A DNA stretch of 22,126 nucleotides. Source: a virus. This document shows positions 2,663 to 18,584 of the stretch, piece after piece. Positions within the stretch are counted from its first letter, which is position 1, and each line of letters starts with the position of its first letter. The notes beneath the pieces are model-generated. The model did not search any database and was not told the DNA's origin. It saw nothing but the letters and a program-made list of their open reading frames with translations. Both the position numbers and the translations under genes were made by a program. Location of the stretch: the IMG/VR virus record IMGVR_UViG_3300032223_001269, positions 1 through 22,126 of that record; one strand, written 5' to 3'.

Positions 2663-5173
2663 TTATTCCTTTGGTTGTTTTGGCTTTACTTGGGGTTTAG
2701 AGGTTTCATGCAACAGTTTCATTGCATCCAACTTGAGCTTGCTCTGGGCCTGTTCGGTCTGTGATTGTGAGCGAAGTTGGTTTTGACGCTCTTGAGACTG
2801 CACGCGGGACTCATTCTGTTGATGCTGCGACTGAACCCGTGCCATCTCTTTTTGCATGTCCACCTCAACCCGCTGTTTATCCAACTGCAATTTAGCGGCT
2901 GCAATCTGAGCATCGGATTGATCTTTCTGGGTTTTGCGTTGGACTTCAGACTGCTGAACTTGGACCTTGGCTTGCTCCAACTGAAACATGGGGTCTTGGG
3001 CTTGTTGTTGTGCCTGTTGTTGAGCCGCTTGCTGTTGATGAGCTTGAGTGAGTTGTTTACCTGCCTCAGCCACCAACTTAGCCAACAACACTTCAATATC
3101 TTCAGGCAACGGTGCATCAGGCGCGGGTAGCGGGGCCCCAAGCTTGTCTTCAATCTGTTTGCGATAACTAAAGGCCAGATGTTCTGCAATGTGCGCTTGG
3201 GCTGAGGCCATAAGCTGCTGCGCCATCGGATTCTGCCCAATAGTCTGGGCAATCATCGGGTCTTGCATGAAACTCATGTGGGTGGTGATGTGGGCATCGT
3301 GGTCTTGGTATATAAACGCCTTGACCGGCTTGCCAACCAGTATCGCCATGTTCTCAGACACAGGATCACGCGGTTTCTGATCTTCAGTCGTGGGCACAAT
3401 CTTGTCTGCATTACGGATACCCAAAACTTCAATCATCTGCCTGTGCAAGTACGGCAAGTCATAAATCTGCGGGGCTTGCTGTGCCATCTGAAACACTGCT
3501 TGATACTGCACCACCCGTTGGGCCATTGTGCTGCTATTGGGGTCGCTAACCGGTATAACGTCAACCATCGCATAGTCAGATTTACGGGCGCGAGATACCC
3601 CTGTCTCCGGCTCATACTGATAGTCCTCCGGCGCGAAGTCCGAAATAATGCCTTTGAGCAGCTTGAACTCCTGCTTCATGGCAAAGTGAACCCGGGCTTG
3701 CACCGCCGCCATTGGCTTTAAAGTTCTCTCCAACAACGCCAATGTCGTTCCAACCGGAGCTTGTGCGCTCATGTCGGAGATGTTCATGTCACTGATAGCC
3801 CCAAGACGACGGCCTTCGTCCGTTATTTTATCCAACAGCCCTGCCAAGACCTGAGACGGTTCTTTATATGGCAGAGTCATAATGTTATCTTTGATGGCCC
3901 CGCTTGGGACATCTACGTCTCTAAACTCTCCCGGAGCTATCGGTGTATCGTCACCCTTTACGCGCAATCCACGAGACTTCAAGCCCCCGGGCAGGTTAGA
4001 CAAGGTTCCAGCATCAACCAACTGCCTGATGATGGCCGTACCCGCACGGGCGTAACCACCGATGATGTGTATCAACCCAAGCCCGTAGAACCCAAACCCG
4101 GGTACATATACATAATGTACGAAGTGGTTGCGCTTGAGTTTCAGGGGGTCTTCTGGCTCCCAATTACGCCGGATAGCCAACACTTCGCCCGTGCCTTTTT
4201 CTATTGTCACAACGTAAGGCTTGGCAAGCTCCTTGTCCTCATCCTCACTTTCTTCATCTATCCCCGGCAAGCAACAGTCGGCATGGATTTCGTACAAGGT
4301 GTACCGGTCATCGTTTGACAGCACGTACCCGCCTTCCCGGGCTTTTTTCTTCTCGATATCACTAAAAAACGTCTCAGGCTCGCCTAGTTCTACATCACGA
4401 TAAAACCCACTGACCTGAAGTTCCTTGACTTCGTTCTTGGTCTTGCGCATGATGTGCGTAACGCGTTCAGCCATCTCGATATGTGAGGCACCATAAGGCA
4501 CAATCACGTCCTCCGCCGGTACATACAGAGATACCTGCCGCTCAAGGGTGGGGTCGTAATAAACTTTCTTGAACGCCGAACCCGCCAACCCAAGGCTATA
4601 GAGCATGCGTTCGTGCTCACTGCGGTACTCGATCATTTTTTCGGTCAACTGATAGTTCATGTCCTCACCAACACGAACAGCCGCTTCTTCTTTTTCTTTA
4701 GTAGATTTACCAATAATCTTGGTCTTCACCGGCCCAGCGGCGGGAAACGTCTCACTCATGGTTTCAGCTTGAAACCTTATGGCAGCTTCAGCTAGTATCG
4801 TAGAATACACACCGCACGCCCCGTCCCACGGCTGGGTGCGCTCTTCATACTTAAACCCAACAACTTCCAGCCCTTTTGCAAAAGTGTCTGCCCACTCTTT
4901 TCTCGCATTCAAGTCCGCATCAATATCCTCAACCAACTCACTAGCAAACATCGCTAGTTCTCCTGCGTTCATTGTTTCTGCAATGTTCTCGTCAAACTCA
5001 CTTTCCCCTTCTTCTTCGCCCGGGGCTATCGTAATCTCAACACTGCCGTCATCCAACGTAACCATATCTGGGTTAACGATATCAATCTGCAACCCTTGTT
5101 CTGTATCTATATCCCCCAAAGTGTCCAACCCTTGCGGGGCCTGATACAAACCTTTATCCATGTTTGTTGCCAT
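2663..5173 (-). CDS. Portal protein, 836 aa
   Basis: The portal forms the dodecameric ring at one capsid vertex through which DNA enters and leaves. The protein has an acidic N-terminal leader to about residue 65. A long central body resembles large portals of tailed phages: WADTFAKGLEVVGFKYEERT and WDGACGVYSTILAEAAIRFQ near the start, then GLAGSAFKKVYYDP, VPAEDVIVPYGA, and FGFYGLGLIHIIGGYARAGT. The last 130-140 residues are a Gln-rich coiled coil (AHQQQAAQQQAQQQAQ). The length exceeds the common 450-750 range mainly because of this tail and the acidic leader. It lies two genes downstream of TerL, the usual place. Start: ATG at 5173 with AAGGAA upstream. Confidence 0.88.
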   Translation of the reverse strand: MATNMDKGLYQAPQGLDTLGDIDTEQGLQIDIVNPDMVTLDDGSVEITIAPGEEEGESEFDENIAETMNAGELAMFASELVEDIDADLNARKEWADTFAKGLEVVGFKYEERTQPWDGACGVYSTILAEAAIRFQAETMSETFPAAGPVKTKIIGKSTKEKEEAAVRVGEDMNYQLTEKMIEYRSEHERMLYSLGLAGSAFKKVYYDPTLERQVSLYVPAEDVIVPYGASHIEMAERVTHIMRKTKNEVKELQVSGFYRDVELGEPETFFSDIEKKKAREGGYVLSNDDRYTLYEIHADCCLPGIDEESEDEDKELAKPYVVTIEKGTGEVLAIRRNWEPEDPLKLKRNHFVHYVYVPGFGFYGLGLIHIIGGYARAGTAIIRQLVDAGTLSNLPGGLKSRGLRVKGDDTPIAPGEFRDVDVPSGAIKDNIMTLPYKEPSQVLAGLLDKITDEGRRLGAISDMNISDMSAQAPVGTTLALLERTLKPMAAVQARVHFAMKQEFKLLKGIISDFAPEDYQYEPETGVSRARKSDYAMVDVIPVSDPNSSTMAQRVVQYQAVFQMAQQAPQIYDLPYLHRQMIEVLGIRNADKIVPTTEDQKPRDPVSENMAILVGKPVKAFIYQDHDAHITTHMSFMQDPMIAQTIGQNPMAQQLMASAQAHIAEHLAFSYRKQIEDKLGAPLPAPDAPLPEDIEVLLAKLVAEAGKQLTQAHQQQAAQQQAQQQAQDPMFQLEQAKVQVQQSEVQRKTQKDQSDAQIAAAKLQLDKQRVEVDMQKEMARVQSQHQQNESRVQSQERQNQLRSQSQTEQAQSKLKLDAMKLLHETSKPQVKPKQPKE

Positions 5174-5449: not shown

Positions 5450-6985
5450 TTAGTAGTAGGCTTGACGCCGCTTTGCTTTGAAGTATTTAACCTCTTCGGG
5501 TTCATCTAACGCCGTACGCACAAACCCCCCGCTTCTGAACCGCATGAGTGCAAGCGTAGTGGCATCCACATAATCGTCATGTTCCCCAGCCGGGAATGAC
5601 GCAATCTCGTCCGCCACTTCTTCCGCCCAATTAGTCTGGGGTTTCCATACGCGCCCCGAAGCAAACAGGTCTGCTACAGAATTTAACCGGCTAATCTTGT
5701 CGTTCCCTCTACTGGGGGTATACTCTTGCACAGGGACACCCATTGCCCTAAGCTCATATATAAGAGGGGCCCCAGATGCTTTCTTCTCGACAATGAGGCC
5801 GTCAGGCATCCAAGACTTGTAATGGTCAAGTGTAACTTGTTTTAATTCAGGGAATTCCAGCCTGTCCCTGAACGCATTAAGCAAGATGATGTTGAACGCA
5901 CCTTTGCCCTTGTCATCGGCCTCGTCTTGAAACACTCCCCACGTCGTACAGGCACTATAGTCAGCCCGATTGGATTTCTCAAACGCTGTGTCCCACGTCT
6001 GGAGGATATAGGCACATTTTGGGGGTCTTTCCTCCTGCCACTCCCGCCACCACTCCCTTTTAACAATGGCCCCTTCGCGGGAAGTAGGAGATTGTTGGTA
6101 CTGAGCATTCCATTTGTAAGCAGGAAGCTCGGTTTTTAGGGCTGTAAGCTCTTTTAAAGACCAAAACTCAGGCCAAAGGGGTTTGGGAGGGTCATATTCG
6201 TCAAATAAAGCGGGAAATTCGATCACTTCCCACTCTTCTCCACCCCTTTGGGTAGTAGATTTGAGCACTTGACCGGTTAAATCACGCTGACTCCAGCGCG
6301 TCATCACTATAATAATGGCCCCACCCGGTTGTAGCCGTTGCCGAGGCCCAGATGTGTACCATTCGTACACTTTATCGTAGATTTCGGGGCTAGTTTCAGC
6401 CATTGTTGCTTCTTGTTCGCTGTGCGGGTCATCAATTATGAGGACATCAGCACCTTTACCGGTCACTGTACCGCCAACACCAATAGCAAAGTAGTCCCCG
6501 CCCATGTTTGTGTTCCATCTACCCGCTGCTTTTGAGTCAGATTGCAGCGAAACACCGGGGAAAATGTCGTTATATAGCTCAGAATCAACCAAATTTCGCA
6601 CTTTTCTACCAAAACCGACAGCTAATTCGGCAGTATTGGAGGTTTGGATGACCTTTTTATGGGGGAAAGACCCTAAAAACCATGCTGGCAGCAGCCAAGA
6701 AGCAAACTCAGACTTGGTGTGGCGGGGTGGCATGTTGATTATGAGCCGCTTTAGCTCCCCCCTAGCCACTCGTTCAAATGCACGGGCCATTATCGTATGG
6801 TGCTTCCCCGCTATAAACACCGGCCACGCCTTCTTTACAAACTTCAAGAAGTGCTTACGACAGCCTTCAATCTCTTTGCTGTGCTCTAGCGCATCCAACT
6901 GCCGAAGAATAGCTCGTTGATCTGTTTCCGATAGCTTATGGATGTTGTTATATAAGTGTTGCAGTTCTTGCACGGAGCCAATCAT
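5450..6985 (-). CDS. terL: Terminase large subunit (TerL), 511 aa
   Basis: TerL is the ATP-driven motor and headful or cos nuclease that packages DNA through the portal. Domain 1 is the ATPase: Walker A variant MPPRHTKS at about residues 85-92, Walker B VLIIDDPH at 181-188, and coupling motif MTRWSQRDL at 228-236. Domain 2 is the RNase H-like nuclease: D332 in WDTAFEKS, E400 in IVEKKASG, and D470/D474 in GEHDDYVDATT, so all the usual acidic residues are present. The length is normal for the Terminase_6 type. It overlaps the upstream TerS candidate by 4 bases. The catalytic set is intact, so I expect it to be functional. Confidence 0.93.
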   Translation of the reverse strand: MIGSVQELQHLYNNIHKLSETDQRAILRQLDALEHSKEIEGCRKHFLKFVKKAWPVFIAGKHHTIMARAFERVARGELKRLIINMPPRHTKSEFASWLLPAWFLGSFPHKKVIQTSNTAELAVGFGRKVRNLVDSELYNDIFPGVSLQSDSKAAGRWNTNMGGDYFAIGVGGTVTGKGADVLIIDDPHSEQEATMAETSPEIYDKVYEWYTSGPRQRLQPGGAIIIVMTRWSQRDLTGQVLKSTTQRGGEEWEVIEFPALFDEYDPPKPLWPEFWSLKELTALKTELPAYKWNAQYQQSPTSREGAIVKREWWREWQEERPPKCAYILQTWDTAFEKSNRADYSACTTWGVFQDEADDKGKGAFNIILLNAFRDRLEFPELKQVTLDHYKSWMPDGLIVEKKASGAPLIYELRAMGVPVQEYTPSRGNDKISRLNSVADLFASGRVWKPQTNWAEEVADEIASFPAGEHDDYVDATTLALMRFRSGGFVRTALDEPEEVKYFKAKRRQAYY

Positions 6986-8454: not shown

Positions 8455-8469
8455 AACTAAACAGGCAGA

Positions 8470-8521
8470 GCCCCGTGAAAGCGGGGCTTTTTTTCGCCCC
8501 GTGAAAGCGGGGCTTTTTTTC
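8470..8521 (+). terminator. Tandemly duplicated intrinsic terminator
   Basis: GCCCCG (8470-8475), a 6-base loop TGAAAG, CGGGGC (8482-8487) and seven T form a textbook intrinsic terminator 15 bases after the 191-aa gene. The whole 26-base unit is repeated exactly at 8496-8521, giving two identical hairpins each with a T tract. The identity points to a recent slippage duplication or to selection for near-complete insulation of the repeat region that follows. Confidence 0.93.
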
Positions 8522-8570
8522 GCCCAAAAATCCTGAAGGTATCGACGCTATCGAGGTCGAACGGTTCTAT

Positions 8571-8661
8571 GGATGCCAGTTCTCAGGGTCGGGCCAGCTT
8601 CGTTCGATTTGGCTTGTAGGTTCTTGAGGGATGCCAGTTCTCAGGGTCGGGCCAGCTTCGT
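8571..8661. repeat. 33-bp direct repeat, 58-bp period
   Basis: The 33-base block starting GGATGCCAGTTCTCAGGGTC is present exactly at 8571-8603 and 8629-8661. The two copies are followed by related but unequal bases and then by a common TTTGGCTTGT. The word GATGCCAGTT returns at 9645-9654, about 1 kb away. No reading frame is maintained across the repeats, and no tRNA-type cloverleaf fits. Confidence 0.85.
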
Positions 8662-8683
8662 CGCGTCGTTTGGCTTGTTGCGG

Positions 8684-8700
8684 CCTTCACGGAGTGAAGG
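8684..8700. repeat. 7-bp perfect hairpin CCTTCAC/GTGAAGG
   Basis: CCTTCAC (8684-8690) and GTGAAGG (8694-8700) pair perfectly around a GGA loop, just after the second 33-bp repeat. A short GTTA/TAAC inverted repeat and five T follow, so a weak terminator is possible, but the T tract is displaced from the stem. Confidence 0.6.
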
Positions 8701-8815
8701 TTACCATAACGTTTTTGGCCTGTCAAGCGAAATTTAAGGTTATTTGAAAAAAAGAATATTAGGCAGAAAAAGCAAGGAAACGGCGTTACCTATCTATTAA
8801 CGTGTTTATAGAAGC

Positions 8816-8836
8816 AAAACTAAAACAAACGCGTTA
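8816..8836. repeat. AACGCGTT iteron copy a
   Basis: The 21 bases from 8816 to 8836 (core AAACAAACGCGTTA) are identical to the first 21 bases of the copy at 9515-9541. The core AACGCGTT is itself palindromic. Confidence 0.8.
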
Positions 8837-9117
8837 ATAGATGCTGCAACGCAACATTTTAGCGTTTTTTTGGGCTTTTTTTAGGAAAAGTAGAAAAGTA
8901 ACTTATTGATTACGCAGGACATTCCAGATGTTTCGGAATATTCTTTAATGTGAGTGTTTAAGGTAGTTACGTAAGCCTTTGAATATACTTAAATGTTCTA
9001 ATGTTCTAAAAAAAACTTGAAAACAACCCCCCCCAAACGACTTTTTGCCAAATAACTTGTACAGACGAGTTTATAGAACGCACAACACTAAGCAAAACTC
9101 CTAAGTTGACGAACTCC

Positions 9118-9133
9118 TACAAACGCGTTTGTA
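9118..9133. repeat. 16-bp perfect palindrome around AACGCGTT (copy b)
   Basis: TACAAACGCGTTTGTA is a perfect 16-base palindrome. It is the symmetric form of the core shared by the other copies and could bind a dimeric protein. It lies beside AACTTGTACA/TGTACAAGTT inverted words. Confidence 0.85.
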
Positions 9134-9419
9134 CAAGTTTTGAAAAAAAAAGTCCGGATAGCTTTGTAATCTCATAGAACATTAGAATATTAGAACATTT
9201 GACAATGAAAGCACTCTTTTTATTTATTAGAATATTATATATTATATATATATAACAATGACTTGCACGCACCAGACCCAAGCCCTTTTTTGCAAACCTT
9301 TGTTCTTTTACGTTTAGAACATTCAAGAATAGCTCAGAATAACTAATGTATTCAAGGACTTGCCTTCCCCCAACCATGCCAATTTACCCCTATTTTGCTG
9401 CGTTGCAACACGTTTTAGC

Positions 9420-9542
9420 TTCTGCTAACGCGTTTGTTTTACTTTTAGCCAAAAAACGTTCTGCTAACGCGTTTGTTTTACTTTTGGGGGTTAGAACATT
9501 TGAAAAACCCAAGGAAAACTAAAACAAACGCGTTAGCAGAAC
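9420..9542. repeat. Three long AACGCGTT repeats forming a large inverted repeat
   Basis: A 27-base block beginning TTCTGCTAACGCGTTTG occurs exactly at 9420-9446 and 9459-9485. Its reverse complement, with one mismatch, is at 9515-9541. The second and third copies extend to 28-base arms (9458-9485 and 9515-9542) around a 29-base centre that itself has GGG/CCC pairing, so a long hairpin or cruciform can form. Upstream, 9397-9419 resembles 8841-8863 (both have GCTGC, GCAACA and TTTTAGC), suggesting an older, larger duplication. Confidence 0.85.
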
Positions 9543-9584
9543 TCGTTCGGTGCTTATAGAACTCCCTCTGCGTTTATAGAACGT

Positions 9585-9650
9585 CACCCCCTTAAGCCCT
9601 TGATGCCACTTAGTGTGGCGGTTCGCCACCCCCTTAAGCCCTTGATGCCA
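9585..9650. repeat. 24-bp direct repeat flanking a hairpin
   Basis: The 24-base block starting CACCCCCTTAAGCCCTTG is identical at 9585-9608 and 9627-9650. Between and overlapping the copies, GTGGCG (9615-9620) and CGCCAC (9624-9629) form a perfect 6-bp stem with a GTT loop. The array ends about 20 bases before promoter P2, so it may be a regulator binding site. Confidence 0.85.
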
Positions 9651-9671
9651 GTTTCCCGAAAATCGCATCGC

Positions 9672-9701
9672 TTGACGAGACCCTCTTTATTGTGCTACAA
9701 T
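9672..9701 (+). promoter_or_regulatory. Sigma70-type promoter P2 with overlapping palindrome
   Basis: TTGACG (9672-9677) and TACAAT (9696-9701) are 18 bases apart, with TG at the extended -10 position. ATTGT and ACAAT flank a 3-base GCT centre over the -10. This promoter would drive the rightward early gene cluster. Its position rules out a start at 9692 for the first gene, which instead begins at 9797. Confidence 0.8.
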
Positions 9702-13710: not shown

Positions 13711-13739
13711 TTGACCGGACCCCCATTATGTGGTACAAT
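13711..13739 (+). promoter_or_regulatory. Sigma70-type promoter P3 with overlapping palindrome
   Basis: TTGACC (13711-13716) and TACAAT (13734-13739) are 17 bases apart, with TG at the extended -10 position (TGGTACAAT). TGT and ACA flank a GGT centre, a shortened form of the palindrome at P1 and P2. The flanks GCTTGAC and ACCCC are also shared. It would start the AAA+/VWA operon with a leader of about 60 bases. Confidence 0.8.
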
Positions 13740-13805
13740 ATAGTTGTTCGGTTGGGAAGTAATAAAAAAACGGTTGTAATCTCATAACAAACAAGGAGAA
13801 GTAAG

Positions 13806-14864
13806 ATGTCCGCACTTAATTTCAATACGGCATTGTCGTTGACACAAGCTGCCGACCTCATAGCAGCAACGCCACAGATCAGGTACTACCTGCGGGGGGA
13901 ACCGGGGATCGGCAAGACCGCGCTACTCAAGCTCCTCCAGAGCCGACTGCCAGAGCACAAGATGGTCTATGTGGATGTGCCGAACCTCGACCTTGGGGAT
14001 ACCGCGATGCCGGTAATTAAGCATGACACCAAGACCACAACGTACTACCCGAACGAACGGTTCGGTCTGCATACAGGGGAGAAGGTGTGCATCCTGTTGG
14101 ATGAGTTTACCAAAGGCGCAGAGCCGGTCAAGAACATGCTGCATCCGATGCTAAACGAGGGGAGGTTCGGCGATGTGCTGCTGCATCCTGATACCCGCAT
14201 ATGTATGACGGGTAACCTGAGTTCGGACGGGGTTGGCGACAACCTGAAGGCACACAGCAAGAACCGCATCACTACTATCACGGTGCGCAAGCCCACCGCA
14301 ATGGAATGGATTCATTGGGGGTTGGACAACGACATCGAGCCGACGGTGTTGGCGTTCAGTAGGCAGTTTGAGCATATCTTCGCAAGCTACACGGAGGTGG
14401 GCGCGTCGGACAATCCCTATATCTACAATCCCAAGCGGCAGCAAGATGCGTTCGTGTCGCCTCGGTCGTTGGAGAAAGCGTCGTTTATCGTGAAGGCGCG
14501 TGGGGTGTTGGACAACGCTAGCGTGGTAGCTGCACTTGTGGGCACATGTGGGGAGTCATTCGCCAAGGACTTCCATGCGTATCTGGACTTCAGTGATCAG
14601 TTGCCGACCAAGGAGAGCATCCTCCAGAACCCCAAGAACGCCAAGGTTCCTGACAACCCCGCAGCGCAAGGCATCCTCGTGTACGGCGGCATCAGTTGGG
14701 TGACCAAGGAGACGTTGACTCCGTTCATGGAGTACATCGAACGCTTACCGGCGGAATGGCAAGCGGTGTTCTGTATCAACCTTGCCAAGAGTAACAAGCA
14801 GAACATGGCGTTTAGCAGCAGGAAGTTTAGTGAGTGGGTATCCAAGAACCAAGACCTTTTGTAA
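13806..14864 (+). CDS. MoxR-like AAA+ ATPase, 352 aa
   Basis: MoxR-type AAA+ proteins are hexameric remodelling ATPases that usually work with a VWA-domain partner on a target complex or metal enzyme. Seen here: Walker A GEPGIGKT (residues 31-38), Walker B CILLDE (95-100), sensor 1 MTGN (N137) and an arginine-finger candidate in KNRI (R154). The second half (residues ~160-352) is helical. The order Walker A - DLGD - Walker B - MLHPMLNEGR - TGNL is the MoxR/CobS style. It is the first gene of the P3 operon, with AAGGAG before the ATG, and is followed by the VWA gene after 15 bases. Substrate unknown. Confidence 0.88.
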   Translation: MSALNFNTALSLTQAADLIAATPQIRYYLRGEPGIGKTALLKLLQSRLPEHKMVYVDVPNLDLGDTAMPVIKHDTKTTTYYPNERFGLHTGEKVCILLDEFTKGAEPVKNMLHPMLNEGRFGDVLLHPDTRICMTGNLSSDGVGDNLKAHSKNRITTITVRKPTAMEWIHWGLDNDIEPTVLAFSRQFEHIFASYTEVGASDNPYIYNPKRQQDAFVSPRSLEKASFIVKARGVLDNASVVAALVGTCGESFAKDFHAYLDFSDQLPTKESILQNPKNAKVPDNPAAQGILVYGGISWVTKETLTPFMEYIERLPAEWQAVFCINLAKSNKQNMAFSSRKFSEWVSKNQDLL

Positions 14865-14879
14865 ACAAGGAGAGCAAAC

Positions 14880-16097
14880 ATGAGTGAACAAGGTAAAGAA
14901 GAACGCCGTCTGAGTAAGGCGGTGATAACCCTGATGCGGCAACCGAGGTTCGCGTTCTATTCGGGGATGTTGATGATGGGGCGTACGTCAGTCGAAGATG
15001 AGGGGGTGCCGACTGCGTATACCGATGGGCGCAACCGCAAGTTCGGGCGGGAGTTCATCAGGGGATTGAAGGACAAGGAGTTGGCGTTCGTGGCGTTGCA
15101 CGAGTGCATGCACGACTTGTATATGCACTTGACTGTGTGGCTCAAGTTGTACAAGGAGAATCCGAAGCTGGCAAATATGGCGTGTGATTACGTCATTAAC
15201 TTGGAGTTGGTTCTCCTCGACCCTAAAGAAGACTTTATCGCTATGCCCAGAGACAAGAGCGGTAAGGCAATGGGCTGTCTGGACATGCGGTTCAAGGGTA
15301 TGAACAGCAAGCAGGTGTTTGATATCTTGAAAGACGAAGGAGGGCACGACACAGGGGAAGACGGAGAGGATGGGTTCGATGAGCATGGATGGGAAGAAGC
15401 GCAAGGCCGCAGCACGGAGGAGAAGGAAGAGATAGCCAAGGAAGTAGAACGTGCCATACGGCAGGGGTTGGTAGCTCTTAAGAAAGCAGGTAAAGGCGCA
15501 GGAGATATCAGTCTGGAGTTGGCTGAGTTGATTGAGCCGAAGGTTGATTGGCGCGAAGTATTGCGCGAGTTCGTGAAGGCAACGTGCCGCGCACCGCAGG
15601 TAAGTAGTTGGCGCAAGGTCAACCGTAGATTCCTTGCGGGTGGCGGGGGTAGCTCCGACTCTTACATGCCGAGCATGATCGGTGAAACTGTTGGACGGCT
15701 GGTAATTGGCATCGACACATCAGGTTCTATTGGTGGGGAGGAGTTGGTTGCGTTCTTATCAGAGGTCAAGTCGATAGCGGAGGATGTCAACCCCGAGAAG
15801 ATTGATCTGGTGTATTGGGATACGCGGGTAGCAGGGCATGAGGAATACGAGCAGAGCAACATGGCCGACCTCGTTAAGTCAACTAAGCCGGTTGGGGGTG
15901 GAGGTACTTCGCCCAGTTGCGTGACTGACTGGCTGCATAAGACGAAGATCGTGCCCGAGTGCAGCATCATCTTAACGGATGGTTGTGTGGGGGGCGACTG
16001 GGGTGGGGACTGGCCGAGCCCCGTGCTGTGGTGCATCGTGGGGCCGTACGGCAAAAGCATTATGGCGGGTACAGGCAAGACCGTGCATGTGGATTAA
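14880..16097 (+). CDS. Metallopeptidase-like (DUF2201-type) and VWA domain protein, 405 aa
   Basis: The N-terminal part (about residues 10-120) holds an HExxH motif, HECMH at 74-78, in ALHECMHDLYMH, and a nearby ACDYVINLEL (D103) that may supply the third zinc ligand. An acidic linker (residues 150-195, EDGEDGFDEHGWEEAQ) follows. The C-terminal VWA domain has a complete MIDAS: D279-T-S281-G-S283 in GIDTSGSIGG, T343 in GGGTSP, and D367 in LTDG, so it should bind Mg2+ and a ligand. This is the usual partner of a MoxR ATPase. Real protease activity is not certain, since many such domains serve as binding modules. Start: ATG after AAGGAG. Confidence 0.85.
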   Translation: MSEQGKEERRLSKAVITLMRQPRFAFYSGMLMMGRTSVEDEGVPTAYTDGRNRKFGREFIRGLKDKELAFVALHECMHDLYMHLTVWLKLYKENPKLANMACDYVINLELVLLDPKEDFIAMPRDKSGKAMGCLDMRFKGMNSKQVFDILKDEGGHDTGEDGEDGFDEHGWEEAQGRSTEEKEEIAKEVERAIRQGLVALKKAGKGAGDISLELAELIEPKVDWREVLREFVKATCRAPQVSSWRKVNRRFLAGGGGSSDSYMPSMIGETVGRLVIGIDTSGSIGGEELVAFLSEVKSIAEDVNPEKIDLVYWDTRVAGHEEYEQSNMADLVKSTKPVGGGGTSPSCVTDWLHKTKIVPECSIILTDGCVGGDWGGDWPSPVLWCIVGPYGKSIMAGTGKTVHVD

Positions 16098-16143
16098 ACA
16101 GATGGCTAAAATAATACTTGACAGTGTAAAGGAGAAGCGTATC

Positions 16144-16395
16144 ATGCAAGGAAAACTAGAAGGTAAGTGTATCGTTTCGGCGTCGTATTCGGACATAGTG
16201 TTGTCCCCAGAGGATGCAATAACTCTGTTGGACATATATTCGAGGGCCGAGAAGTACGAGCATCATATTAACTACACAACAAAAGAAGAGTCCCACCATG
16301 TCTGGGATGTGACGTCACTGATAAACGTGAAGTCGATACCACTATCACTATATCAGTGCGCAAAACTCGCAGGTAAACGAGAAGATAAACAATAA
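16144..16395 (+). CDS. Hypothetical protein, 83 aa
   Basis: I chose ATG 16144, which follows AAGGAG by 9 bases, like the next gene (AAGGAGAAGCATC). An in-frame ATG at 16102 has no visible ribosome binding site but would add 14 residues. The product is mixed alpha/beta (CIVSASYSDIVLSPEDAITL, LLDIYSRAEKYEHHINYT) with a short C-terminal helix. It sits between the VWA gene and the 288-aa gene, so it may be an accessory of that module. No family is recognised. Confidence 0.68.
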   Translation: MQGKLEGKCIVSASYSDIVLSPEDAITLLDIYSRAEKYEHHINYTTKEESHHVWDVTSLINVKSIPLSLYQCAKLAGKREDKQ

Positions 16396-16410
16396 ATAAG
16401 GAGAAGCATC

Positions 16411-17277
16411 ATGTCAGGAATAACTCAATCAGCAGTATTGGTCGATCTGAATGTCAGCGTGTGGACGGCGCGTAAGTTGGATAGGAAAGTGTCCGAAGAA
16501 GTAGATGCTATGAAGGGGGCGACAGTACGGGCGGGTAACTACTCCAAGAACTTGTTGGCAGGTAGTGGATCGCTTGATAAGATCGTGAAGCAAGCTGCCC
16601 TCGCAAGGACATGGCATACAGGACAGACGTTGCCGTGGTCTGATGCAGGTACACGCATGCTGCCGACCAAGAACTTCTTGGACTATAAAACTGGCATCAC
16701 TCAACGCGAGGCCGAGTTCAACGCGCTGTGCGTAACCTTCTACGCAGACTACCCAAACTTGGTTAATGCGGCGGTAATGCGGTTGGGGGGTATGTGTGAT
16801 CTATCAGAATACCCAGACGTGAACGCATTGCCTAACAAGTTCAAGTTTAAGGTGCAGTTCAGTCCGATAGCCGAGGCCGGAGATTGGCGCGTGGACGTGG
16901 AGAACGAGACGCGTGATGAGTTGATCAAGCAGCACGAGGATAACCTGAGAGACAAAGAAGCTACAGCCATGCAGGACTTGTGGGCTCAGTTGCATGAAAC
17001 CCTTACTCATACATCCTTGATGTTGTCTGATATTAAAGATGACGCAGGAGTACCGAGTCGTCGTCCGTTCAGAACAAACATGATCGATAACGCGTTAACG
17101 CAATGCTCGATGTTGTCCAAGCTGAACGTAGCCAACGATCCCAAGATGGAGCAAGCACGGCGGGATATGGAACGTGCGTTGACGGGTGTGCATGTAGATA
17201 CCCTGCGTAGCAGCGACGAAGCGCGGCTCAGTGTTAAGAGCAAGCTTGACGACATCCTCAACAAGATGGATTGGTAA
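16411..17277 (+). CDS. Putative third component of the AAA+/VWA module (DUF3150-like), 288 aa
   Basis: The product begins VLVDLNVSVWTARKLDRKVS and continues with AGNYSKNLLAGSGSLDKIVK, a layout I associate with DUF3150-type proteins that accompany CobS/MoxR ATPases and VWA proteins in phages and plasmids. This is by memory of pattern and order and not verified. The middle is helical, with VTFYADYPNLVNAAVMRLGG and a charged helix near residues 165-200. There are no membrane segments or catalytic motif. ATG follows AAGGAGAAGCATC. The role may be that of adaptor or substrate of the ATPase, as an inference from gene order. Confidence 0.68.
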   Translation: MSGITQSAVLVDLNVSVWTARKLDRKVSEEVDAMKGATVRAGNYSKNLLAGSGSLDKIVKQAALARTWHTGQTLPWSDAGTRMLPTKNFLDYKTGITQREAEFNALCVTFYADYPNLVNAAVMRLGGMCDLSEYPDVNALPNKFKFKVQFSPIAEAGDWRVDVENETRDELIKQHEDNLRDKEATAMQDLWAQLHETLTHTSLMLSDIKDDAGVPSRRPFRTNMIDNALTQCSMLSKLNVANDPKMEQARRDMERALTGVHVDTLRSSDEARLSVKSKLDDILNKMDW

Positions 17278-17287
17278 GGGGGTAGGT

Positions 17288-18184
17288 ATGAGTGTAACTA
17301 ATGTAACTCTAAGTAATGTAGTAGAACCGTATATTCGCCACCCAGTTTTAGAGCTAGTACCAGCAGACTACGAGGGCAAGACGTTTGTTTTGCAGGAAGA
17401 GCTGCTGTTTCTTCTGCACAGGATACATCGTAAACATCCAGAGTGGGCGTTCAGAGTCGGAGGTAAAGCAAGTTTGTGGAACGCTGGGTGGGCGGTGGCT
17501 GTGGAAAACCCAAACCTTTACACATTCACTAAGGTGGAAGTGCTTTCAAACGGCGCAGTGTTGGGGGGGATCAAAACCAGACGAGATTATTTTCTGGGGG
17601 TTAGTAATGTTTTGGTGTACAGCATATCCTGCAAACGCATTATTAAAAAGCGAGGGCCTTCAAAGGTGTCGCAGACAAGCAACGATAAAAAAGCGATGAA
17701 GCTGGTGTTGGATAACTTTCGAGCAGATTCCCTACTTGAACTAGCTACTAATATTATTTCACAAGGTAGACAGTTGGGGCAACGCGCTGTTGATGGCCCC
17801 AACACAAGCCTTAATACGGTTACGAGGCGGCTATCAGGCACGGCAATGCAGTTTGTAATGGCTAACAAGGATCAGTTCTTGGCGGCATTTCCAGAAAGCA
17901 GGGGGTGGATTAGTACAGTGGAGTCTGCACAGGACGATTTGAATGTCGTGAATAACATAAACAGTTCGCCGAAACTGTACATCTGTATCGAGCAAGACGA
18001 CTTGTACGCATTTACCGAACTAAACGAACTCAAGTATCACGATACCCCCGATGGTAACGCACTACCGGAGTGGGTAAGACGTAAGGTGGGGTTGCTGAAG
18101 TTGATAAAACCAACACAGTACCTGCGTGATGTAGGTGTCCGTATTAGCGACAAGATGTATTCAATAATAGACCAAGGGGAATAA
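17288..18184 (+). CDS. Hypothetical protein, 298 aa
   Basis: The ATG at 17288 is chosen because GGGGGTAGGT lies just upstream; the frame is open back to 17231 but there overlaps the preceding gene. The product is mixed alpha/beta: EGKTFVLQEELLFLLHRIHR, WAFRVGGKASLWNAGWAVAV, a Lys-rich centre (CKRIIKKRGPSK), and a C-terminal ICIEQDDLYAFTELNELKYH. It is the last gene of the P3 operon that is close in size to the module genes. I see no known domain. A connection to the ATPase module rests on operon position only. Confidence 0.75.
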   Translation: MSVTNVTLSNVVEPYIRHPVLELVPADYEGKTFVLQEELLFLLHRIHRKHPEWAFRVGGKASLWNAGWAVAVENPNLYTFTKVEVLSNGAVLGGIKTRRDYFLGVSNVLVYSISCKRIIKKRGPSKVSQTSNDKKAMKLVLDNFRADSLLELATNIISQGRQLGQRAVDGPNTSLNTVTRRLSGTAMQFVMANKDQFLAAFPESRGWISTVESAQDDLNVVNNINSSPKLYICIEQDDLYAFTELNELKYHDTPDGNALPEWVRRKVGLLKLIKPTQYLRDVGVRISDKMYSIIDQGE

Positions 18185-18185
18185 C

Positions 18186-18584
18186 ATGAACAAGTTACAA
18201 AAGATTGAGAAGCTGTTGGTTACGAGCATGTCCGTGAAAGATATTGCCAAACAAGTGAAATGCACACGGGACTATGTGTATCAGGTGAGGCTCAAGCGCA
18301 ACAAGGAGAAGCAGGTAGTGAAGAGGGTGGCAAGAGAAGAGGTAAAGCCTGTCGTGCAGCAGGTAACCACCGTCACACCTAACGACATACAAGTGGGTGG
18401 CTCACATTACAAGGAGCAGGACATTCAACCGTGGGATGCCATCCATGCATGGAAGCTTGGGTTCTTCTCTGGCAACGTGGTTAAGTATGTTGCTCGTCAC
18501 AACCAGAAGGGCGGTGTTAATGATCTGCGTAAAGCCCGTCACTATCTGGACAAGTTAATTGAACTTCACACCAAGGTGAAATGA
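18186..18584 (+). CDS. HTH plus DUF3310 (SaV-like) protein, 132 aa
   Basis: Residues 1-40 form a helix-turn-helix of the resolvase/sigma type (VKDIAKQVKCTRDYVYQVRL), followed by a Lys/Arg/Val linker. Residues 66-130 match the DUF3310 family: VGGSHYKEQDIQPWDAIHAW, LGFFSGNVVKYVARHNQKGG, DLRKARHYLDKLIEL. DUF3310 is widespread in phages and is described as a putative nucleotide kinase-like or nucleotide-related domain with no firm activity. The fused DNA-binding part suggests a regulator. It starts one base after the preceding stop. Confidence 0.85.
   Translation: MNKLQKIEKLLVTSMSVKDIAKQVKCTRDYVYQVRLKRNKEKQVVKRVAREEVKPVVQQVTTVTPNDIQVGGSHYKEQDIQPWDAIHAWKLGFFSGNVVKYVARHNQKGGVNDLRKARHYLDKLIELHTKVK

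Follow-up and report, generated by a model that had tools for sequence, protein, structure and literature searches.

Why does a freshwater phage encode a MoxR-type ATPase and a VWA protein side by side, and on what would such a pair act? The question is raised by a 22-kb phage fragment of freshwater source (IMG/VR record IMGVR_UViG_3300032223_001269; 22,126 nt, hereafter the window), whose long IMG/VR relatives examined here were ~59-67 kb in length. An earlier note on this DNA had described five genes under one promoter and considered three classes of target, namely a host enzyme, a DNA complex or phage assembly. The five ORFs of this cassette (A, V, s, D and X in Table 1) were all found to be real, with purine-rich ribosome-binding sites seen in the sequence, and the cassette was conserved beyond chance. 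The five conserved genes probably encode an ATP-driven protein-remodelling machine. The adjoining DUF3310 gene, a neighbour in 37 of 48 relatives, was not considered a part of it.

Table 1. Features of the window, with positions counted from its first letter
Feature	Position	Strand	Remarks
Portal	2663-5173	-	
Terminase	5450-6985	-	
U, 293 aa	12802..13683	+	Family unassigned; directly 5' of promoter; conserved neighbour
Sigma70-type promoter	13711..13739	+	TTGACC-17-TACAAT, extended TG
A, MoxR-type AAA+ ATPase, 352 aa	13806..14864	+	Homologue of N4 gp24
V, DUF2201 HExxH domain and VWA domain with full MIDAS, 405 aa	14880..16097	+	Homologue of N4 gp25
s, 83 aa	16144..16395	+	Family unassigned; 3' of V
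D, DUF3150-like, 288 aa	16411..17277	+	Profile comparison via plasmid homologues
X, 298 aa	17288..18184	+	Fast-evolving partner
DUF3310 gene (phage 'nucleotide kinase'-associated)	18186..18584	+	PF11753, E 8e-12

Elsewhere in the window, two divergent gene arms were separated by a ~1.2-kb AT-rich tract with few ORFs (8455-9700), which has the appearance of a control region or replication origin. It contained a 33-nt direct repeat and several AAAACAAACGCGTTAGCAGA-like elements in both orientations; tandem identical terminator-like hairpins were located at 8470-8521, and the GC skew of the window changed sign at ~6-8 kb.

Protein A displayed the motifs GEPGIGKT, LLDEF, TGN, NR and SPRS. Residues G36, K37, D99, N137, R154 and R220 (Walker A/B, sensor 1, arginine, sensor 2) were invariant in 25 diverse relatives, which bore out the full Walker and sensor motifs noticed earlier. 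As a single protein, A scored slightly below the cut-off for AAA_5 (20.8 bits; cut-off 22); it matched phrog_1297 with an E-value of 1.3e-44 and had relatives in 335 phage records. The profile of the A family matched Midasin (E 4.8e-38), and the nearest solved structures were Midasin AAA modules. PADLOC models returned no specific anti-phage defence match, only short and weak matches to ATPase motifs.

Protein V matched PF13203 (98.6 bits, cut-off 23.2; E 6e-28), PF09967 (54.7 bits, cut-off 26.4; E 1e-14) and phrog_1314 (E 1e-82), and its relatives were found in 737 phage records. It displayed both an HExxH motif (HECMH, residues 74-78) and a complete MIDAS, formed by DTSGS at 279-283 (D279, S281, S283), T343 and D367, as had been claimed before; HExxH and DxSxS were retained in all 122 distinct freshwater relatives. 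In a broader set of 30 diverse V proteins, from freshwater, N4-like, jumbo and cyanophage members, Vequintavirinae and plasmids, all MIDAS residues were invariant. HExxH was kept in 27 of the 30 and lost in a Variovorax plasmid, a Paraburkholderia plasmid and phage Littlefix. A binding function of the metal site thus looks universal in this alignment, and the peptidase-like motif does not. From these motifs we infer that the cassette is active.

In many RefSeq phage records, as well as in phrog_1314, the DUF2201/VWA proteins (N4 gp25 and relatives) carry the label 'HNH endonuclease'. The diverse members aligned here displayed metallopeptidase-like and VWA motifs, not HNH, and the label seems to be an error passed on from record to record.

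CobS/CobT and NorQ/NorD are examples of MoxR-VWA pairs that handle metals, and the VWA partners of bona fide DUF3150 proteins gave weak matches to CobT models; both points would suit a cassette devoted to metal-cofactor insertion or to a cobaltochelatase-like auxiliary metabolism of the CobS/CobT type. V itself, however, had no match to CobT models in NCBIfam or Pfam, and neither the scan of window proteins nor the reading of annotated homologous loci brought up a gene for a metalloenzyme client. We regard this role as very improbable.

The single sequence of D scored 14.5 bits against Pfam DUF3150 (PF11348), below the cut-off of 24.9, and the protein is therefore named DUF3150-like rather than a Pfam member. 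A profile of phage and plasmid D proteins matched bona fide DUF3150 with a probability of 95.8% (E 7.6e-9, 224 columns), compared with 43.7% for a profile of phage proteins only, without the plasmid intermediates. D thus appears to be a distant relative of DUF3150, and its earlier assignment gained support from this comparison via plasmid relatives, which have the same MoxR/VWA neighbours. The AlphaFold2 model of D (pLDDT 87) was mostly helical; its structural comparison gave nothing significant, the best Z (8.8) belonging to assorted and uninformative helical bundles. Bona fide DUF3150 genes were found in 11 of 300 Burkholderiales genomes, where most had genes for a Walker-A ATPase and/or a VWA protein next to them. 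A PF11348 search of three Cupriavidus-type genomes holding D homologues gave no match, because D is sub-threshold for Pfam there as well. In Tunturiibacter phage Tunturi_3, gp96 (L163:5734-6762) is a D-family protein (E 4.9e-24) labelled HNH endonuclease, and no match to A or V was present within the 12.7-kb stretch examined.

X and U had no clear relatives in Pfam, PHROG or PDB, and no relationship was detectable between U and X or between X and D. The AlphaFold2 model of X (pLDDT 85) displayed two alpha/beta domains, one at the N-terminus and a small one at the C-terminus, with a long helix in the centre, and Foldseek returned no significant match to it (best E 0.31). A frataxin-like assignment of X, prompted by a best Z of 6.1 (YdhG/frataxin-like protein) and by several frataxin/YjbR/Nqo15-like rows over residues ~36-147, was rejected as too weak. 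Short peptide patterns (P0004) gave zero viral loci, though relatives of P0004 occur in A/V loci.

A or V served as the query in gathering homologous loci; the presence of these two genes is therefore partly built in, while that of D, X, s and U is independent of the query. Among the 124 distinct contigs, each gene being counted where the flank was long enough, D was present in 96 of 99, X in 98 of 99, s in 88 of 116 and U in 66 of 83, and the order U-A-V-s-D-X was kept in nearly all relatives. Pairwise identities of the other genes were correlated with V identities, at Mantel r values of 0.86 for A, 0.89 for D, 0.84 for X, 0.74 for U and 0.67 for s, and none of 200 permutations gave values as high. 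Median pairwise identities of 72%, 68% and 64% for A, V and D, respectively, define a slow core, as opposed to 26% for both X and U, which are fast; s displayed 37%. The neighbourhood comparison proposed in the earlier note therefore showed genes that do co-occur, and the cassette is no chance insertion. X and s, which had been left unassigned as possible additional parts, are real parts that co-occur and co-diverge with V.

The promoter before A would by itself be within chance, as a 7-kb scan found six promoter sites where 6.7 were expected; its conservation is what spoke for the single promoter claimed. Of 107 distinct sequences preceding A in relatives, 43% held a sigma70 match of at least 10/12, against 2% of dinucleotide shuffles, although these sequences are related and the percentage does not count independent events. 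By the same criterion, sites upstream of U, V, D and X amounted to 0% in the relatives, a contrast that holds in spite of the relatedness. This pattern is good support for one transcription unit that begins with A, and U probably forms a separate one. A promoter-like site at 16118 was rejected since it overlaps the start of s, and no site of its quality was found upstream of D in the relatives.

The location of the cassette in phage genomes was consistent. V was encoded on the strand opposite to the terminase in all 16 near-full-length relatives, and thus not with the late or structural genes, and it shared a strand with DNA polymerase A in all 15 that have this polymerase, mostly at a distance of 5-11 kb. 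A PD-(D/E)XK nuclease (15 of 16) and an SNF2-type helicase (16 of 16) were found near the polymerase on the same strand as V. This position beside replication genes suggests that the client is a replication or recombination complex; the evidence from position is circumstantial, as such neighbours may just mirror an early-gene region.

The N4 locus was recovered by the A and V family profiles built here, and gp24 and gp25 are core genes of the N4-like phages, with middle transcripts and no assigned function (PMC4193335, PMC7650795). The phage MoxR-VWA pair, already known from N4 and from jumbo phages, is hence not new. In the N4-like phages LUZ7, Littlefix, nACB1 and D505, the A-V pair was closely followed by helicase and DNA polymerase genes. 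None of the N4-like phages examined had D close to A-V, and D is accordingly not needed by every pair. In Littlefix, LUZ7 and nACB1 (L207-L209), A and V are separated by a small gene of ~137-165 codons, which may represent a different third subunit replacing D. Three records from different cyanobacterial hosts, OQ594354.1, OL906435.1 and PP438419.1 (MinM2, Pag-Yong1 and Pra-JY27), were identical in length (65,014 bp) and match score; a single phage may have been deposited three times, or the records may share a contaminant.

Relatives of the cassette were also encountered on plasmids. Of the 44 plasmid records with D homologues, 16 were typed conjugative, and V lay within ~2 kb of D in all 20 plasmid records among the matches listed (two lists compared). 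A, D and V were consecutive in all ten Cupriavidus/Ralstonia/Burkholderiaceae genome loci fetched. Bona fide DUF3150 was more abundant still, with 1,154 plasmid records of which 976 were typed conjugative, figures for which no enrichment is claimed. An IncC plasmid displayed ssb, bet and exonuclease genes, then DUF3150, then a VWA gene, and a mobilizable Citrobacter plasmid the order ssb, RecT, exonuclease, MoxR, DUF3150, VWA. The plasmid context of ssb, RecT and exonuclease is not exactly copied in phages, as no YqaJ exonuclease was found in the 16 near-full-length relatives. Conservation of MoxR and VWA genes in R478, Rts1, SXT and R391 had been described in a 2009 study of pCAR1 (PMC2642839).

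Occurrence on plasmids bears directly on the third target class, phage assembly. In that case the encoded chaperone would assist virion assembly and process structural proteins by proteolysis. Such a role is reported for the MoxR/VWA pair of Acidianus two-tailed virus, and A-V pairs were found near structural or chaperone genes in S-TIM5 and PBECO4, in the latter just 3' of the virion structural genes. Iyer and colleagues proposed the same role for jumbo-phage pairs of MoxR and metallopeptidase-VWA proteins (PMC7824862), and a structural cluster lies near gp24/25 in some N4-like phages (PMC4193335). Yet the A-D-V triad also resides on conjugative and other plasmids, which make no virions, N4 gp24/25 are middle and not late genes (PMC4193335), and a processing role fits poorly with the three homologues devoid of HExxH. 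The plasmid triads, together with the strand position in phages, argue against assembly and for an early or middle remodelling activity linked to DNA metabolism. A virion-assembly role is thus improbable for this cassette, and of the three classes first considered it is the host protein and the DNA-associated complex that still stand.

Our preferred reading, with a probability of about 0.5, is a MoxR AAA+/VWA remodelling machine with a DUF3150-like subunit, acting early or in the middle of infection on a client that is located on mobile-element DNA or is a host blocker. The cassette would be expressed from its host-type promoter early or mid-infection, as N4 and gene position suggest. A would form an ATP-driven ring by analogy with NorQ/NorD, the best mechanistic template, in which the VWA domain sits on the pore of a hexameric ring and an acidic patch on the client is bound through the MIDAS (PMC9976466). 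The invariant MIDAS of the V family fits client binding of this type: the VWA domain would dock on the A ring, and the metal site would grip the client protein. D and X could be scaffold or client-recognition subunits, and ATP hydrolysis would distort, free or mature the client. Most likely this client is a complex of proteins on mobile-element DNA that is replicating or recombining, or else a host protein blocking it. Trimming of the client by the HExxH domain may occur but cannot be the universal activity. The cassette would thus probably serve the replication or survival of mobile DNA in the host and not the building of particles.

A rival reading directs the machine against the host, the ring and its MIDAS adaptor dismantling or disabling a restriction or defence complex on incoming DNA, with X and U providing target specificity. 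It remains a candidate because X and U evolve fast next to a slow core, as in a host-directed arms race, and it also agrees with the sigma70-type promoter and with a machine common to phages and conjugative plasmids. Relaxed constraint may, however, explain the fast X and U, and both were missing from the plasmid and N4-like loci examined. We consider counter-defence of this kind rather unlikely, less so than assembly.

Since phage and plasmid versions are joined through D, the published virion-assembly proposal cannot cover the whole family. N4 gp24/gp25 are the core pair of a large phage family, and in the loci read plasmid DUF3150 genes had MoxR genes, VWA genes or both as neighbours; the evidence points to a role common to both versions, in the metabolism of mobile DNA or in counteracting the host, which is directly testable in N4. 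As a tentative generalization, less probable than our main reading, MoxR-VWA-DUF3150 could be a general mobile-DNA machine of virulent phages and conjugative elements that remodels or strips proteins on element DNA undergoing replication or recombination, host defence complexes possibly among them, while the fast-evolving X and U would serve this phage clade as target receptors.

Compared with known systems, NorQ/NorD, CbbQ/CbbO and RavA/ViaA share with the cassette a MoxR ring and a VWA adaptor with MIDAS; their clients are cellular enzymes, and to our knowledge they have neither a DUF2201 HExxH domain nor a DUF3150 partner. The jumbo-phage pair combines A with a V bearing an N-terminal metallopeptidase domain, as in the window; D and X are not mentioned in the part of the source available, in which the role proposed is virion assembly (PMC7824862). 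Triads of the IncC/IncH type and of pCAR1, SXT and R391 (the last three per PMC2642839) follow the same three-part MoxR-DUF3150-VWA logic, and those read adjoined ssb/RecT/exonuclease genes. Their VWA proteins are CobT-like and longer and their MoxR proteins displayed a CbbQ_C domain in the members scanned, unlike in the window, to which only D is tied by the profile comparison made here. In the Burkholderiales and Rhodovastum plasmid triads, A, D and V are all homologous to those of the window, adjacent and on one strand; their order is A-D-V where the window has A-V-s-D, searches found neither s nor X nor U, and HExxH is lost in some (Variovorax, Paraburkholderia). Phage N4 gp24/gp25 and the Schitoviridae differ in that the N4-like phages examined are devoid of D and X and that most members aligned are only ~16-24% (A) and 26-32% (V) identical to the window, but they resemble the cassette in the homology and order of A and V, in MIDAS and HExxH, and in their location in an early/middle, replication-side region.
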